DNA from: Pseudomonadota bacterium
Lineage (GTDB): Bacteria; Pseudomonadota; Gammaproteobacteria; Steroidobacterales; Woeseiaceae
Assembly: GCA_027621915.1 (NCBI GenBank)
Contig: JAQCAD010000009.1
Span: forward strand, 1 to 64,000
Direction of reading: 5' to 3'
Length of the DNA: 64,000 nt
Both the position numbers and the translations under genes were made by a program. Within the stretch, counting starts at the first letter, position 1. Every line of letters begins with the position of its first letter. Below the pieces are notes generated by a model that was not told the DNA's origin, did no database searches, and worked only from the letters and a program-made list of their open reading frames with translations. Positions 47,560 through 53,168 of this stretch are shown here, piece by piece.

Positions 47560-47626
47560 CGAGAGCGATGCGGGGTCCTGGCGTCGTGGTCGCCGGCAGC
47601 GTTAACGCTTCCGGCTGCGGAAACTG

Positions 47627-47632
47627 TAGAAT
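47627..47632 (+). promoter_or_regulatory. Putative -10 of tRNA-Gly
   Basis: TAGAAT lies 20 bases before the mature tRNA 5' end. TTAACG (47602-47607) is a possible -35, but the spacing of 19 bp is long. Confidence 0.35.
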
Positions 47633-47652
47633 CACAAACAGGCAAAGCGTTT

Positions 47653-47726
47653 GCGGGTGTAGTTCAATGGTAGAACATCAGCTTCCCAAGCTGAGTATGA
47701 GGGTTCGATTCCCTTCACCCGCTCCA
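47653..47726 (+). tRNA. glyT: tRNA-Gly(CCC)
   Basis: A complete 74-nt tRNA with encoded CCA. The 7-bp acceptor stem GCGGGTG / CACCCGC closes, the anticodon arm has stem TCAGC / GCTGA and loop TTCCCAA giving anticodon CCC, and the T arm shows GGTTCGATTCC. It decodes GGG glycine codons. The downstream porin reading frame runs through it in the same direction. No integrase gene is near. Confidence 0.97.
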
Positions 47727-48449
47727 GGAATCCGGCGATGGGCCACAACTCGAAAAGGATTTGTTGCAGCGCTTGCCTTTTGTGTTTTGTCCGGCCTTGC
47801 CGTGCCGAGTGGGGCGGCCGAATTGAGCGGCTACCTGATACTCACCACCGACTATGTGTTTCGTGGTGTATCCCAGAGCGATGAACACGGCGCGGTGCAG
47901 TTGGGCGCGGACGCAAACTTTCAATCGGGATGGTATTTCGGCGCGTGGGGATCTACCGTCGACATCGGCGCTGGTACGCCGCGGCAACGAGATCTCGAGG
48001 TCAATTACTATCTCGGTTACACGCGTGATGTCTCGCGAAAATGGACAATTGGTGGCAACGCGGTCGCTTACGCATATCCCGGCGCAGCCGGGCTAATTGA
48101 TTACGACTACACCGAGTATTCACTAACTTCGAATTTCGATGATCGATTGTGGATTGAATACAGCTATTCTCCGGATCTCTACCACACGAGCGAGTCAGCA
48201 CAGAACCTGTCGCTTTACACTGAATGGCAGGCTGGTGATCTTTTCAAATTCGGCGTGGGAGCCGGATATTACGATGTATCCAACCTGATCGGTGATGGCT
48301 ACGCGAATTGGCAAATAGGTGTGACACGGTCTTTCAAATATTTGACGCTTGATTTGCGGTATCACGACGCCAGTCGCTGGCTGCCTATAATCAGCAGCCC
48401 GGACCACGCGGGCGCAAGAATAGTATTGAGCGCAAAGTTCCAGATCTAG
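47697..48449 (+). CDS. TorF-family putative outer-membrane porin
   Basis: About 250 codons as listed. The mature region matches the TIGR02001/TorF family of small outer-membrane beta-barrels: 'LSGYLILTTDYVFRGVSQSDEHGAVQLGADANFQSGWYFGAWGS', 'LEVNYYLGYTRDV', and a C-terminal aromatic-rich strand pattern ending 'IVLSAKFQI'. A hydrophobic signal 'GFVAALAFCVLSGLAVPSGAA' precedes it. The start is unresolved. No ATG, GTG or TTG lies in frame between the tRNA and the hydrophobic core; the nearest in-frame ATG (47697) is inside tRNA-Gly. ATG 47737 is well placed but in another frame, which would require a one-base change around the AAAAGG run near 47754. The porin body is sure; the first residues are not. 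Confidence 0.75.
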   Translation: MRVRFPSPAPGIRRWATTRKGFVAALAFCVLSGLAVPSGAAELSGYLILTTDYVFRGVSQSDEHGAVQLGADANFQSGWYFGAWGSTVDIGAGTPRQRDLEVNYYLGYTRDVSRKWTIGGNAVAYAYPGAAGLIDYDYTEYSLTSNFDDRLWIEYSYSPDLYHTSESAQNLSLYTEWQAGDLFKFGVGAGYYDVSNLIGDGYANWQIGVTRSFKYLTLDLRYHDASRWLPIISSPDHAGARIVLSAKFQI

Positions 48450-48456
48450 AGCGTCA

Positions 48457-49719
48457 TTATTCCTTGCAGCCAGAGGTGCTGCTCGCAAGACTCAGCGCCA
48501 CGCATGCATTTACTGACGTGAAAACAGAAATGTCAGCAGATTGGGATTCTCTGAGAATTTCGCGAACGGTATCGAATGATAATTCCGGGGATTCTGCGAG
48601 TAATAACGCGATGACACCGCTGACTACGGCAGCTGACAGAGAGCTACCGGAACGAAAATCGTAGGCATTGTCAGGAACGGCAACCATTATCTGGCTGCCT
48701 GGCGCATAAATGTGCCTGCGATTCGCCGATTCCGGAAACGCCAAATTCGACGCCACCAAATGTTGCTCGCTGGCGACCACGCCAATGACCTGATCCATGT
48801 TGCCTGGAAAACCATTGCTTTCGTTTGAGTACGCTGTGCTCGCGGCGACAACGATGACACCGGCTTCCAACGTTTTCTCAATGAGTCTCGTAAGCAAACC
48901 GTCATCCGGACCCATCAGGCTGAGGTTTAGCACTTCCGGCGGATTATCCAACAGACTGTCAAGTGCCTTGGCCAGCGTGAAACTGTCGCAAACCGCGCTG
49001 ATCGAACCGTCTTCCGACCAGCACGATACCAATAATTCCATGCTCGCTCCCGGTGCAATCCCAACGATTCCCGCCCCGTTGTTCGTCTTTGCTCCGATCA
49101 CGCTCGTGATCGCCGTCCCATGGTCCATGTCCGATCGACGGTCAGGGTCCGTGAACACCCTGATTCGGCGAAGCCGGCCTTGCAAGTCTTCATGTCCGGC
49201 ATCTGCGTTGCCGTCAATAATTGCAATCCGAACACCGGCACCCGTCGAAAAACGGTGCGCTGCGTTAATGCCCAATATTCCCAGCCCATGCTGCAAGTTC
49301 GCCAGCGTGTCGTTGTAGTCCATACCGGAGTCCGTGCTGGTCTCGAATTCGTTCAGCGGTTGCACGGATTCGACGCGGGCATCCGACCTTAACTGCTCGA
49401 TTATGTCGTCACGATTGACACCGGAAGGTATTCGATACACGAAGCAATACACGGACAACGAACGAATGGGCCAGTGGTCAATTTCACGCAGTGAATACTT
49501 GCTGGCGATATCGTTGGCACTTCGCCGGGCACTCGCCGCAATCGAGTAGCGACCGCGATTGCGATACGGTGCGCCGATGCCGGCGCCGTTCGCCCTCGCA
49601 CCGTCGTTTTCAAACGTGATGAGAATATCCTGGCTGCGCTCTGCGACTTCGTCGCTCGCGACCGCCACGGCAGACATTATCAGCCCAATGACTATTAATC
49701 CTGACAGTCGTCTTTTCAC
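48457..49719 (-). CDS. Exported subtilisin-like (S8) serine protease
   Basis: A 420-residue S8 family protease with a signal peptide ('LIVIGLIMSAVAVA') and an N-terminal prodomain-like region (residues ~25-135, 'YCFVYRIPSGVNRDDIIEQLRSDARVESVQPLNEF'). The triad is present in modified motifs: Asp in 'RIAIIDGNADAGHEDL', His in 'MDHGTAITSVIGAK' and Ser in 'RSGSSLSAAVVSGV'. Its start overlaps the anti-sigma gene stop by 4 bp (ATGA), making it the third gene of an ECF sigma / anti-sigma / protease operon. It may cleave an envelope target or the anti-sigma factor's periplasmic part; both are inference. Confidence 0.9.
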   Translation of the reverse strand: MKRRLSGLIVIGLIMSAVAVASDEVAERSQDILITFENDGARANGAGIGAPYRNRGRYSIAASARRSANDIASKYSLREIDHWPIRSLSVYCFVYRIPSGVNRDDIIEQLRSDARVESVQPLNEFETSTDSGMDYNDTLANLQHGLGILGINAAHRFSTGAGVRIAIIDGNADAGHEDLQGRLRRIRVFTDPDRRSDMDHGTAITSVIGAKTNNGAGIVGIAPGASMELLVSCWSEDGSISAVCDSFTLAKALDSLLDNPPEVLNLSLMGPDDGLLTRLIEKTLEAGVIVVAASTAYSNESNGFPGNMDQVIGVVASEQHLVASNLAFPESANRRHIYAPGSQIMVAVPDNAYDFRSGSSLSAAVVSGVIALLLAESPELSFDTVREILRESQSADISVFTSVNACVALSLASSTSGCKE

Positions 49720-50372
49720 ATCGATGGCTTCAGTGGCAATTGCATCGCTACGACCTCAATCGACTGCACTGACGTTAACGACTGCACGTCGCGGGTGTAC
49801 TGCTCGAGTTCCTCGAGCGTACTCACACGAAGTTTGACCGTGACCTGGTAGAGTCCCTCGGCATCGCCTGGTGTGATGCTCCTCGCATCAATCTCTCGCC
49901 AGACCTTGTCACGATCAGCCGCCTCCGTCCCGGCTGCAAAATGAACATTTAAAACGTAGTCCATGGCCGCCACCGGTACGGCTGAGGTTGCTGTCTGGAA
50001 GCGGGTGGGTACCGGCTGGGTCCGGGCCTGGTAAATCAAGGTCAGGGCTGTCACAACCAGCGTCGCCGTCAGCGATGCGACAAGCGTGATACGAAATCGA
50101 GGGATACGGCGGGTGCTTGGAAACACTTTGGCGCCGTCAATTGAATCAAGCAACCGTGTGAGATTCGCGTTCGGTAAGATCGGCGTCGGTGAACTTCTTG
50201 TTACGGCTGACCGCAGGGACGAATACAGCGCAACGTCCTTCTCGCACTCGCTGCATTCGTCGATGTGGTTCTGGACAATTTCCCGTTCCATGTCGTCCAG
50301 GGTGTTATTTACGAACCAGGGCAGCAGAAGGCTGACCTGTTCGTGTTGGGTGCTGGTTGTTTCTTCAATCAT
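49716..50372 (-). CDS. Zinc-finger anti-sigma factor
   Basis: A 218-residue membrane-anchored anti-sigma factor. The N-terminal zinc-binding domain has the HxxxCxxC motif of the ZAS/zf-HC2 family in 'NHIDECSEC' (His36, Cys40, Cys43). One membrane helix lies near residues 94-115 ('ITLVASLTATLVVTALTLIY'), and a ~100-residue periplasmic domain follows. It should hold the adjacent ECF sigma factor inactive until an envelope signal. ATG 50372 overlaps the sigma stop by 8 bp; an in-frame alternative at 50390 lies further inside the sigma gene. Confidence 0.88.
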   Translation of the reverse strand: MIEETTSTQHEQVSLLLPWFVNNTLDDMEREIVQNHIDECSECEKDVALYSSLRSAVTRSSPTPILPNANLTRLLDSIDGAKVFPSTRRIPRFRITLVASLTATLVVTALTLIYQARTQPVPTRFQTATSAVPVAAMDYVLNVHFAAGTEAADRDKVWREIDARSITPGDAEGLYQVTVKLRVSTLEELEQYTRDVQSLTSVQSIEVVAMQLPLKPSM

Positions 50373-50961
50373 CGAACTTCTCGATTTCACTGCTGGTTGG
50401 TTCCACAGACGGTTCCAGCAAAGTCTTTAACTTTTTACGCGCGTGAAACATTCGGGTTTTAACGGTGTTCACTGAACAGTCGCAGACCGCAGCGACTTCC
50501 TGATATGAAAGGCCAAGAAAGAATACAAGCTCGACCGTTATCTGCTGCGCCGCTGGTAACGCCTTGAGTCCGTGTCGAATCCAGTTCTCCAGTTCCAGGG
50601 ATGCACCATCGTCGGATGGCAGTTGATCGAGATCCAGGGACGTTACAATCCTGATTTGCTTCTGGGTAACCCGTCGCATTGTCTGTCTGTATGCGATGCC
50701 GAAGATCCAGGTGGATACTTTGGACTCGCCGCGAAACGTATTCGCCTTTTGCCAAACCAGCAGCATGATGTCATTCACCATCTCGTCGGCAATTGTGTAC
50801 GAATGTGTCAGTCGAAAAACGAATTTGAACAAGCGGGCGTGGTAGGTGTGAAATAGTTCTGTTAATGCATCCCGATCTTTGTCGGCAACTCGCCGGAGGA
50901 GCGACAGCTCCTGCTCATTCGAGACGTCAATTTTCGGCTTTGTCTGCATTTTAGGCTTCAA
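50365..50961 (-). CDS. ECF-type RNA polymerase sigma factor
   Basis: A 198-residue sigma-70 family factor of the extracytoplasmic-function type. Region 2 is 'LTELFHTYHARLFKFVFRLTHSYTIADEMVNDIMLLVWQKANTFRGESKVSTWIFGIAYRQ' and region 4 is 'LPAAQQITVELVFFLGLSYQEVAAVCDCSVNTVKTRMFHARKKLKTLL'. The N-terminal start may be TTG 50961 (close to a GAGGGA site) or ATG 50949. It leads an operon with its anti-sigma factor and an exported protease. A divergent inverted repeat upstream probably carries its own promoter. Confidence 0.93.
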   Translation of the reverse strand: MKPKMQTKPKIDVSNEQELSLLRRVADKDRDALTELFHTYHARLFKFVFRLTHSYTIADEMVNDIMLLVWQKANTFRGESKVSTWIFGIAYRQTMRRVTQKQIRIVTSLDLDQLPSDDGASLELENWIRHGLKALPAAQQITVELVFFLGLSYQEVAAVCDCSVNTVKTRMFHARKKLKTLLEPSVEPTSSEIEKFDD

Positions 50962-51022
50962 TGTCCCTCGGCCCTCACAGGTTTGACGAGCGCCCGGTGC
51001 GTAAGTGCCATTAAATCAGCGA

Positions 51023-51107
51023 AAAGGTTCAATACGCTCCACAAAATCTCTCAAGTTTGTTTTGTATCTCGAATTTCGTGACTGAATCAACGGGCGATTG
51101 AACCTTT
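51023..51107. promoter_or_regulatory. Divergent inverted repeat, probable paired ECF promoters
   Basis: Perfect 11-bp arms AAAGGTTCAAT (51023-51033) and ATTGAACCTTT (51097-51107), 63 bp apart, face outwards between the sigma operon and the haem-protein operon. TGAACC resembles ECF -35 elements. On the right side CGTACC begins 15 bases later (51120), a normal ECF -10 position; on the left no clear -10 is visible. A sigma-70-like AATAAT (51142-51147) is also present on the right. Confidence 0.55.
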
Positions 51108-51165
51108 CCCGGCTCACGACGTACCCACCTCAAAACCAGACAATAATCCGAGGTAGGTTCCGAAC

Positions 51166-52047
51166 ATGAAGAATACGTTGATATTGAAGATTCGTACCGG
51201 ACTCCTGTTGTTGATATTTTCGGGCGTGCTTGGCGCATGCGGTGGTGGTGGCGGTGGCGCTCCGCTGCCTCCGGCACCGCCACCACCACCGCCGCCTATC
51301 ACGGCTGTTTTTTCGTCAATTCAGAGCAATGTTTTCACCCCCACGTGTGCGGTATCCGGCTGTCACACGGGAGCAGGCGCGCCACAGGGGCTGCGACTGG
51401 ACGCAGCGAACAGTTATGCACTTCTGGTCGGTGTGGCGAGCATGGAGGTGCCGACGATTATGCGGGTGGCGCCCGGCGACCCCGCCAACAGCTATTTGGT
51501 TCAAAAGCTGGAGGGTACGGCGTCAAGCGGAGTCCGCATGCCGCTGGGCGGAGGCGCGTTGCCGGCCGCAACAATTAATGCGATCAGGCAGTGGATCACG
51601 GATGGCGCTACAGACGATCGTGTGGCGAGCACGAATCCGAAACGGGTCAGCTCACTATCACCATTGCCCGGCAGCATATTGGAAGCTGCGCCGTCGGCAA
51701 TTACTGCCATATTCGATCGTGATCCCGATCCCTCCACAGTCAACCTGAATACGTTCATCCTGGAGAGCAGTGGTGGTGATGGAACCTTTGGAGACGGAAA
51801 CGAGGTATCGATCGCGGCAGCATCAATATCAGTTCCCGCGGCCAATCCAGCCACCGCAGTTTTCGATCTGACCGGAGTCAGACTGGCCGACGACGTCTAC
51901 CAGGTCAGGCTTCTCGGCGAAGGCGCATCGATGATGCTCGATATGAGTGCCAACGCCCTGGACGGTGAATTCTCCGGCGCGTTTCCGTCCGGCGACGGCT
52001 CACAGGGCGGCGTCTTCACGGCAGAATTCGAAATCGCCAGCCACTGA
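51166..52047 (+). CDS. Lipoprotein with CX4CH haem motif and Ig-like C-terminus
   Basis: A 293-residue lipoprotein (lipobox 'VLGACG', Cys25), followed by a glycine run and a proline-rich linker to residue ~44. A cytochrome-like domain at ~45-150 has the atypical motif Cys61-AVSG-Cys66-His67 (CX4CH), as in the PSCyt1-type domains common in planctomycetes, plus 'RMPLGGGALPAATINAIRQWITDGA' with a possible axial Met. The C-terminal part (~165-290) resembles a bacterial Ig-like domain ('PSAITAIFDRDPDPSTVNLNTFILES'). It is likely attached to the outer membrane and may shuttle electrons. GGTAGG precedes the ATG. The haem-porin gene starts 20 bp downstream. Confidence 0.82.
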   Translation: MKNTLILKIRTGLLLLIFSGVLGACGGGGGGAPLPPAPPPPPPPITAVFSSIQSNVFTPTCAVSGCHTGAGAPQGLRLDAANSYALLVGVASMEVPTIMRVAPGDPANSYLVQKLEGTASSGVRMPLGGGALPAATINAIRQWITDGATDDRVASTNPKRVSSLSPLPGSILEAAPSAITAIFDRDPDPSTVNLNTFILESSGGDGTFGDGNEVSIAAASISVPAANPATAVFDLTGVRLADDVYQVRLLGEGASMMLDMSANALDGEFSGAFPSGDGSQGGVFTAEFEIASH

Positions 52048-52067
52048 TTAGATAAGGAAATCTGCCT

Positions 52068-53168
52068 ATGTTCTCTTTCGTGACGTCGCTTGTTCGCCGT
52101 GCGCCATTTTTTTTGGCCATTGCTCTTCTCTTTAGCGGAGTGGCATTTGGCGAGCCGTACCTGGCTATTTACAAAGGTATGCAATGTTCGTCCTGTCACA
52201 GTCAGCAGGCGGGCGGGGGCAAACGCAATGTCTACGGAAATGCTTTCGCGCAGACGGAATTGCCCGCACAACGCATTGGCGAAGGCGACCTGTGGACGGG
52301 AGAGATTACCAAGTCGTTGTCTATTGGCGCCGATCTGCGTGCCAGTTATCAAAACGTGGATGCGCCGAATAGTCCGGAAACCTCTGAATTCAGCGTTAAC
52401 CGCGGGACGGTATATCTTGAAGCGAGCCTGGTTCAGAATCGCCTGTACCTGTACGTTGATCAACAACTTGCGCCGGGTGCCAGCGTCAATCGTGAGGCCT
52501 ATCTGAAACTGCTAAGCGCTAGCGGCAAAGTCCAGTTTCTCGCGGGGCAGTTCTTTCTTCCCTACGGTTTGCGATTACAGGACGACACTGCTTTCGTGCG
52601 CCAGGCAACAGGGATTAACTTTACCAATCCGGATCGCGGCCTGCAGGTTGCGTACCAGACCGATCAATGGTCTTCGCAAGTGTCCGTCACCAACGGAAGC
52701 GGCGGTGGGGTCGAAACGGATACCGGCAAACAGATCAGCTTTGTAACGAGTTACATTCGACCGCTCTGGCGCGTCGGTGCAAGTCTCAACTACAACGACG
52801 ATGACCTCGGTGACAGGCAAATGCAGAACATATTCTTCGGCCTGAAAACAGGGCGACTCGTCTGGCTGGCGGAGATAGATCTGATTACCGACGATTTGCC
52901 CGGCGGATTCGAGCAGGACGCAACGGCCGGGCTAATTGAGGCCAACTGGCCGGCTCGACAAGGCCACAACCTGAAGGTCAGTTTCGACTTTTTCGATCCG
53001 AATGAAGACCTGGGCGCGGATCGCCAGACGCGATACAGCCTGGTTTGGGAGTACATGCCGATGCAATTCCTGCAGGGCAGGTTCGGCGCACGAATTTACG
53101 ACGGCGTTGTGCAGATTGATTTTCAGAACCGAGACGAATTTTTCGCCGAGATTCACGGTTTCTTCTGA
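52068..53168 (+). CDS. Outer-membrane beta-barrel with N-terminal haem motif (cytochrome-porin)
   Basis: A 366-residue protein: signal peptide to residue 28 ('FFLAIALLFSGVAFG'), then 'GMQCSSCHSQQAGGGKRNVYGNAFAQTELP' with a CXXCH haem-binding motif (Cys40, Cys43, His44). The rest (~75-366) is a beta-barrel pattern of alternating strands and short turns ('LYLYVDQQLAPGASVN', 'VQFLAGQFFLPYGLRLQD', 'WSSQVSVTNGSGGG') ending in aromatic 'FFAEIHGFF', the usual outer-membrane C-terminus. The layout is like Cyc2, a monohaem cytochrome fused to a porin that moves electrons across the outer membrane, but length and motif context differ. AAGGA precedes ATG 52068. Confidence 0.8.
   Translation: MFSFVTSLVRRAPFFLAIALLFSGVAFGEPYLAIYKGMQCSSCHSQQAGGGKRNVYGNAFAQTELPAQRIGEGDLWTGEITKSLSIGADLRASYQNVDAPNSPETSEFSVNRGTVYLEASLVQNRLYLYVDQQLAPGASVNREAYLKLLSASGKVQFLAGQFFLPYGLRLQDDTAFVRQATGINFTNPDRGLQVAYQTDQWSSQVSVTNGSGGGVETDTGKQISFVTSYIRPLWRVGASLNYNDDDLGDRQMQNIFFGLKTGRLVWLAEIDLITDDLPGGFEQDATAGLIEANWPARQGHNLKVSFDFFDPNEDLGADRQTRYSLVWEYMPMQFLQGRFGARIYDGVVQIDFQNRDEFFAEIHGFF

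Follow-up and report, generated by a model that had tools for sequence, protein, structure and literature searches.

A candidate outer-membrane electron conduit: a lipoprotein cytochrome paired with a fused cytochrome-porin that resembles Cyc2, yet is not a Cyc2

Introduction

Can a lipoprotein and a porin, encoded side by side and each carrying a haem motif, form a path for electrons across the outer membrane? This question is raised by a stretch of 64,000 nucleotides from a Woeseiaceae genome (contig JAQCAD010000009.1), the whole of which is called the window here. A preliminary description of this DNA had noted a CX4CH lipoprotein 20 bp upstream of a porin with a CXXCH motif directly after its signal peptide. 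It had likened the porin to Cyc2-type cytochrome-porins, proposed that an ECF system controls the pair, and taken the arrangement to be undescribed. As checks it had named conservation of the two-gene pair and comparison with Cyc2 profiles, and it had held that cysteines not conserved in orthologues would speak against its reading. Surveys of extracellular electron transfer commonly seek multihaem cytochromes or the Cyc2 motif, and the window pair has neither. Here we ask how well the pair is conserved, how it relates to Cyc2 and what might switch it on.

Results

The first gene of the pair (positions 51,166 to 52,047, forward strand) encodes a lipoprotein cytochrome c of 293 amino acids with a signal peptide and an LGAC lipobox. 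Following a gap of 20 bases, the second gene (52,068 to 53,168, forward strand) encodes a putative fused monohaem cytochrome-porin of 366 amino acids, which consists of a signal peptide, an N-terminal haem segment and a predicted 16-stranded barrel. These open reading frames bear out the layout given in the preliminary description. In single-sequence searches, neither protein matched anything above the Pfam or NCBIfam cut-offs and neither had a clear relative in the PDB. The plasmid collection held no match to the barrel.

Across 149 genomes (that of the window and its relatives), barrel matches were found in 37, one of them (G072) weak and partial, and lipoprotein matches in 94 at E ≤ 0.001, many of them weak. 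The scan of relatives, with one genome per species and 80 of 92 relatives kept, yielded 79 barrel loci. Their carriers are Woeseiaceae, Steroidobacter/Peristeroidobacter, Nevskia and Burkholderiales (e.g., Roseateles, Pelomonas, Paucibacter and Aquabacterium). Directly upstream of the barrel, adjoining or overlapping its start, 72 of 78 loci have a frame that contains a haem motif. In three of the six exceptions (L062, L090 and L096) the locus begins at a contig edge; the other three (L110, L114 and L138) are true misses, with no haem motif in any of the three forward frames over 1.6 kb upstream of the barrel. The pair is thus kept in 72 of the 75 loci that can be assessed. Given the chosen start codons, the two genes overlap by exactly 4 nt in 43 loci, a pattern as in translational coupling.

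The lipoprotein of the window runs from the signal peptide through the lipobox (Cys25), a glycine and a Gly/Pro linker to a cytochrome domain (about residues 46 to 150) and a C-terminal Ig/CopC-like domain (about residues 155 to 293). The glycine after the lipobox cysteine suggests that the protein is probably located in the outer membrane. Its haem motif, CAVSGCH (C61-x4-C66-H67, residues 61 to 67; 51,346 to 51,366, forward strand), aligns with the CXXCH of relatives. Methionine is the usual axial haem ligand, and alignment with relatives predicts this role for the methionine of Met125-Pro126 (51,538 to 51,543, forward strand). When the window protein was aligned with 41 of the 72 relatives' sequences, C25, C61, C66, H67, M125 and P126 were invariant in all 42.

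Over the 72 loci, a lipobox pattern precedes the haem motif in 66 lipoproteins; 23 have CX4CH as their first haem motif and 49 have CXXCH. In all 72, Met-Pro lies 62 to 68 residues past this motif. Its position is +64 in 22 of the 23 CX4CH proteins (+68 in the remaining one) and +62 in 47 of the 49 CXXCH proteins (+63 and +67 in the other two). Because the motifs exchange with Met-Pro shifted by two, CX4CH can be read as CXXCH plus two residues. All 72 lipoproteins therefore combine a CXnCH motif with a candidate axial methionine, as expected of a c-type cytochrome.

An extra haem motif beyond the first module occurs in 22 of the 23 CX4CH proteins and in 8 of the 49 CXXCH proteins, typically in the order cytochrome-Ig-cytochrome. 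The window lipoprotein is a short form of this arrangement, since in most close relatives the Ig domain is followed by a second cytochrome module. Steroidobacter lipoproteins likewise lack the second cytochrome, and several from Burkholderiales are hardly more than a cytochrome domain. The lipoprotein profile matched FoxE (E 7.9e-6; next best 0.02). At E ≤ 0.01, 24 of the 42 aligned members matched PSCyt1 (PF07635), the window protein not among them; Pfam Big_5 was matched by 24 of 42 and CopC by 4 of 42. Foldseek matches of the lipoprotein model fell mostly on the Ig domain, with CopC-type proteins nearest.

We then considered the barrel protein. Its signal peptide is followed by EPYLAIYKGMQCSSCH and then by the barrel, which ends in a terminal Phe. 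The haem motif CSSCH (C40-H44; 52,185 to 52,199, forward strand) sits in the segment EPYxAxxxGxxCxxCH...GGGxR and contains the only two cysteines of the protein. An N-terminal CXXCH is present in 78 of the 79 barrels, the exception (L067) being cut by a contig end, and EP[YW]xA...CXXCH is kept in all 78 readable barrels. Because the scan patterns sit in the barrel part, the haem segment was not selected for. Its recurrence, together with the haem frame upstream in 72 of 78 loci, argues that these motifs are not due to chance. The position of CXXCH directly after the signal peptide was correctly described before, and the cysteines proved to be conserved in orthologues, with CXXCH in 78 of 78 barrels and a haem motif in 72 of 72 lipoproteins. 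No axial ligand was identified for the barrel haem.

An AlphaFold2 model of the barrel protein, built from 65 aligned members (the window's sequence and 64 of the 78 relatives'), has 16 strands, a pLDDT of 90.6 and a pTM of 0.84. Foldseek ranked OprP first (E 6.5e-14), chitoporin second and OprO third (E 3.1e-13); on realignment OprO (Z 26.4) and OprP (Z 26.1) led, with general porins at Z 22-25. Porin_O_P (PF07396) was matched at E ≤ 0.01 by 11 of the 65 members (best 1.8e-6), and the window barrel was not one of them. By the structural comparisons the protein models as a 16-strand porin of the OprO/OprP type. OprO and OprP are also named as fold relatives of Cyc2 in Keffer 2021 (PMC8406198).

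This led to the question of whether the barrel protein is a Cyc2. According to He 2017 (PMC5566968), the known Cyc2, Cyc2-PV1 and Cyt572 are significantly homologous at the N-terminus only. For comparison we used a Cyc2-type set. A typed consensus probe matched 56 of 321 genomes of the class at E ≤ 0.01, and a motif pattern fetched 30 loci, which gave 22 open reading frames; 21 were aligned, and one short frame (L158) was lost. Since the probe carried the motif and a pattern was used in the choice, motif counts within this set are biased upward.

Compared by hhalign as full proteins, the barrel family matched the 21 Cyc2-type sequences with a probability of 96% (E 2.8e-9; 95% and E 3e-8 in a rerun). 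When signal peptides were removed, the full-length match was weaker (82%, E 1.1e-5), and the haem segment alone, also without signal peptide, matched with a probability of 95% (E 2.9e-8, score 38.2). None of 60 column shuffles of the haem segment, in which C, C and H were held fixed, reached this score; they averaged 21.8, and the best, at 34.8, came near the observed value. The barrel parts alone gave no sequence match between the two families (hhalign probability 3.8%). Of the 78 barrels, 73 have the spacing A.P..A...G..C..CH, as do 21 of the 22 members of the Cyc2-type set, which was itself partly chosen by this pattern. By these comparisons the haem segment of the barrel protein is distantly homologous to that of Cyc2, and the profile comparison proposed earlier comes out in favor of a relationship.

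The motifs of Cyc2 itself tell a different story. AXPXFAR[QK][TY], which precedes CXXCH (Keffer 2021), is found in 0 of 78 barrels compared with 16 of the 22 Cyc2-type frames, and PXL shortly after CXXCH, with 2 to 4 residues allowed between, in 0 of 78 compared with 20 of 22, both Cyc2-type counts being biased upward. Conversely, EP[YW]xA and G[GA]GxR are present in 78 of 78 barrels and in 0 of 22 Cyc2-type frames. We could therefore rule out strict membership in Cyc2, and the absence of both published motifs from all 78 marks the barrel protein as a separate family of fused cytochrome-porins. What the two families appear to have in common is a single N-terminal CXXCH after the signal peptide, fused to a porin, a 16-strand OprO/OprP-like barrel (predicted here) and distantly homologous haem segments. 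Unlike Cyc2, the window family has a lipoprotein cytochrome as partner and usually an ECF switch. It is also shorter, with a median mature length of 340 aa versus a median of 445 aa, signal peptide included, for the Cyc2-type frames. On this sequence evidence the barrel protein resembles Cyc2 in build and in haem segment, yet is not a Cyc2. The earlier likening to Cyc2-type cytochrome-porins thus holds for architecture, predicted fold and haem-segment homology, and fails for the published motifs.

Does the pair then oxidize iron? In a Cyc2-like iron(II) oxidase, the barrel haem would take electrons from dissolved Fe2+ and pass them to the lipoprotein cytochrome. The homologous haem segment and the predicted fold shared with Cyc2 would suit this function, as would the lipoprotein's match to FoxE, a cytochrome of iron-oxidizing phototrophs, and the presence in the same genome of a further gene whose haem segment is of the Cyc2 type. 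However, neither AXPXFAR[QK][TY] nor PXL is found in any of the 78 barrels, and the FoxE match may merely mirror the common cytochrome c fold. Moreover, the carriers, judged by name, are not known as typical iron oxidizers. We consider iron(II) oxidation unlikely to be the function of the pair.

We next turned to the proposed ECF control. Divergent from the pair, on the reverse strand, lie genes for an ECF sigma factor (50,365 to 50,961; Pfam Sigma70_r2 and Sigma70_r4_2), an anti-sigma factor (49,716 to 50,390; Pfam zf-HC2) and an exported S8 (subtilase) protease (48,457 to 49,719; Pfam). Sigma70 regions r2 and r4_2 adjoining zf-HC2 mark the first two as an ECF sigma/anti-sigma pair. Beyond them, on the forward strand, is a gene for a Gcw_chp protein (Pfam; 47,568 to 48,449), whose mechanically called frame starts too early. 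A tRNA-Gly (CCC) gene at 47,653 to 47,726 lies inside the 5' part of this frame, so the true start is probably later.

These genes recur with the barrel, although the synteny counts rest on gene calls from a crude greedy ORF picker. Among the 79 loci, an S8 protease cluster is present in 51 (within 7 kb of the barrel in 49) and an ECF sigma factor cluster in 44. Anti-sigma factors split into two clusters, of 23 and 15 loci, and 35 loci have an anti-sigma gene within 7 kb. A Gcw_chp cluster is found in 32 loci, and Gcw_chp genes are within 7 kb in 37; a further Gcw_chp cluster occurs in Burkholderiales. Where 6 kb or more of upstream sequence is available (57 loci), the numbers within 7 kb are 36 for ECF, 43 for S8, 29 for anti-sigma and 32 for Gcw_chp. 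Of these 57 loci, 47 have one or more of the ECF, anti-sigma and S8 genes and 10 have none. Three clusters of larger lipoproteins also lie within 7 kb of the barrel, in 24 of the 79 loci; those scanned have CHRD and Big_7 (L070 and L086) or Big_7 only (L099), and some have a haem motif.

By word counts, TGAACC, AAGGTTC and similar words are overrepresented in front of the lipoprotein and ECF genes. In the window, a promoter-like element TGAACC-N17-TACCCAC (51,099 to 51,128, forward strand) faces the cytochrome pair, and TGAACC-N18-CACTTAC (51,001 to 51,031, reverse strand) faces the ECF operon. The general form TGAACC-N15..18-YACNNAC was found in front of 21 of 54 lipoprotein genes, 16 of 44 ECF genes and 10 of 804 other genes. 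Its second half had been taken from the window itself and from six of the loci (L061, L065, L066, L070, L075 and L076); when these six are left out, the element is found in 15 of 48 lipoprotein and 12 of 38 ECF upstreams. Even these reduced counts are only partly independent, because the word counts covered the same upstream regions, including loci counted later. The spacer is 17 to 18 in all lipoprotein and ECF sites counted; other spacers, over a range of 5 to 30, gave no more than 2 sites before lipoprotein genes and 4 before ECF genes. Fifty shuffles averaged 0.04 and 0 sites versus the 21 and 16 observed. The exact element is missing from 33 of the 54 lipoprotein and 28 of the 44 ECF upstreams. 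An earlier guess, GAAC-N15-19-CGT, was discarded, as it matched 7 of 54 lipoprotein and 1 of 44 ECF upstreams versus 66 of 799 controls.

Of the ten matches upstream of other genes, nine precede genes of two CHRD-lipoprotein clusters (9 of 15; L070:11163-14327 and genes in L073, L075, L076, L079, L081, L083, L094 and L098) and one precedes a B12-radical-SAM gene (1 of 11). The remaining 778 upstreams had none. Scanned in full, 43 of the 79 loci contain sites, 67 altogether, and 18 of these sites precede no called gene. The whole genome of the window has 7 matches versus 2 for the reversed pattern, and the form TGAACCTTT has no match in that genome outside the window. This distribution is consistent with an ECF factor that would control its own operon as well as the pair, with the sigma factor presumed to bind the element. 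Both the synteny and this predicted shared element back the ECF control suggested in the preliminary description.

Could the regulation instead be what the pair is for? If the pair were a sensor of redox state or damage, its two proteins, the haem barrel and the lipoprotein, would signal the redox state of the envelope to the anti-sigma factor, perhaps via the S8 protease, with conduction incidental. Such a role would account for the recurrence of ECF, anti-sigma and S8 genes near the pair and for an element that faces both operons. However, an autoregulated sigma factor with driven neighbours is the usual logic of a regulated effector. Furthermore, the 10 of 57 loci without any of the three genes still keep the barrel, and Pfam scans at E ≤ 0.01 found no signalling domain in the pair. 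A sensor is thus quite improbable.

We also looked at other haem-related genes in the genome of the window. Pieces of a CcmF/NrfE-type haem lyase are found on two contigs, each below the family cut-off. The separate gene with a Cyc2-type haem segment (L171:54-1130, C98) is cut by the contig start and is followed by a trihaem cytochrome. A paralogous dihaem lipoprotein with CX4CH and CXXCH (L170:8398-9675, C6) lies directly upstream of a PQQ-dependent dehydrogenase.

This last arrangement raises the possibility of an enzyme system, in which the lipoprotein would accept electrons from a periplasmic dehydrogenase and the barrel would be the pore for that enzyme's substrate. A search for a PQQ dehydrogenase as a general partner of the lipoprotein family found it next to 0 of the 30 lipoprotein loci searched, 20 of them barrel linked. 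No dehydrogenase was found among those recurrent neighbour clusters to which an identity could be given, and the barrel haem would be left unexplained. We give this model little chance of being correct. Finally, the cysteines could be structural, forming disulphides in an ordinary porin, as the barrel's porin fold is ordinary and the haem is predicted from motifs; but the full CXXCH, His included, is kept in 78 of 78 barrels, and the lipoproteins swap CX4CH and CXXCH with Met-Pro shifted by two, so that this explanation deserves hardly any credence.

Discussion

With haem sites conserved, genes kept together and homology to Cyc2, the candidate reading of the preliminary description is well supported at the level of sequence. 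We think it likely that the pair constitutes a minimal, inducible outer-membrane electron conduit, in which haem would be attached to both proteins and electrons would be transferred between them. In this model, the barrel protein would join an N-terminal c-haem segment to a 16-stranded OprO/OprP-like barrel, an architecture of the Cyc2 type. The lipoprotein would be a cytochrome c, with a Met-ligated haem bound at CX4CH, positioned beside the barrel. Through a presumed contact with the barrel, it would act as an electron relay that links the barrel haem to other carriers. The divergent operon of ECF sigma factor, anti-sigma factor and S8 protease would turn the pair on, with the sigma factor recognizing TGAACC-N17/18-YACNNAC ahead of its own operon and ahead of the pair. 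Weighing against this model are the lack of a sequence match between the barrel parts of the two families, shuffles of the haem segment that come near the observed score, the three loci without a haem lipoprotein upstream, the upstreams that lack the exact element, and the 10 of 57 loci without ECF, anti-sigma or S8 genes. Most named carriers (Roseateles, Pelomonas and Steroidobacter), moreover, are not known as oxidizers or reducers of metals.

How does such a conduit compare with known systems? The MtrAB, MtoAB, PioAB and Pcc complexes likewise have a barrel and a cytochrome encoded together. MtrA-type systems have about ten or more haem motifs, whereas the window family usually has two or three, one of them built into the barrel protein. 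In its cytochrome domain, the lipoprotein family matches FoxE and, in 24 of 42 members, PSCyt1, both cytochromes c, but here the protein is a lipoprotein, often with an Ig/CopC-like domain, has CX4CH in 23 of 72 cases and is coupled to a barrel gene. A CXXXXCH motif also occurs twice in tetrahaem cytochrome c3 (PMC10454114). Unlike that protein, the lipoprotein module of the window is predicted to be single haem and of the Met type, with its CX4CH an insertion variant of CXXCH. Genomes of Woeseiaceae from sediment metagenomes are reported to have mtrA, mtrB and mtrC, and the word "porin" is absent from the text of that paper (PMC12175321). Judged by titles and abstract openings, none of the open-access matches listed describes the pair. 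This agrees with the earlier view that the arrangement is undescribed, although it does not prove that no description exists.

The classification that suits the pair best is a new family of fused cytochrome-porins that come with a partner cytochrome and, at most loci, with a regulator of their own. A broader proposal is that it represents a second lineage of fused cytochrome-porins besides Cyc2, one that in ordinary heterotrophs (Woeseiaceae, Steroidobacter and Roseateles relatives) has turned into a dedicated, sigma-switched conduit equipped with a lipoprotein cytochrome; we regard the chances of this proposal as evenly balanced. If it is true, electron exchange across the outer membrane by two or three haems would be common, as an inducible trait, beyond the known metal-cycling bacteria, and would have been overlooked by searches for multihaem cytochromes and Cyc2 motifs. 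Because named strains of Roseateles, Pelomonas and Steroidobacter have the pair, the idea is directly testable. The promoter-like element and the sigma factor would provide a handle on the signal that calls for an electron path in the outer membrane.

Two further observations concern relatives of the locus. A branch of dihaem lipoproteins (L048, L050-L052 and L055-L060) occurs in varied gene contexts, with no barrel within 1.5 kb flanks. In some Burkholderiales (L112, L116, L118, L122 and L123), genes of the radical-SAM or B12-radical-SAM type come after the pair.
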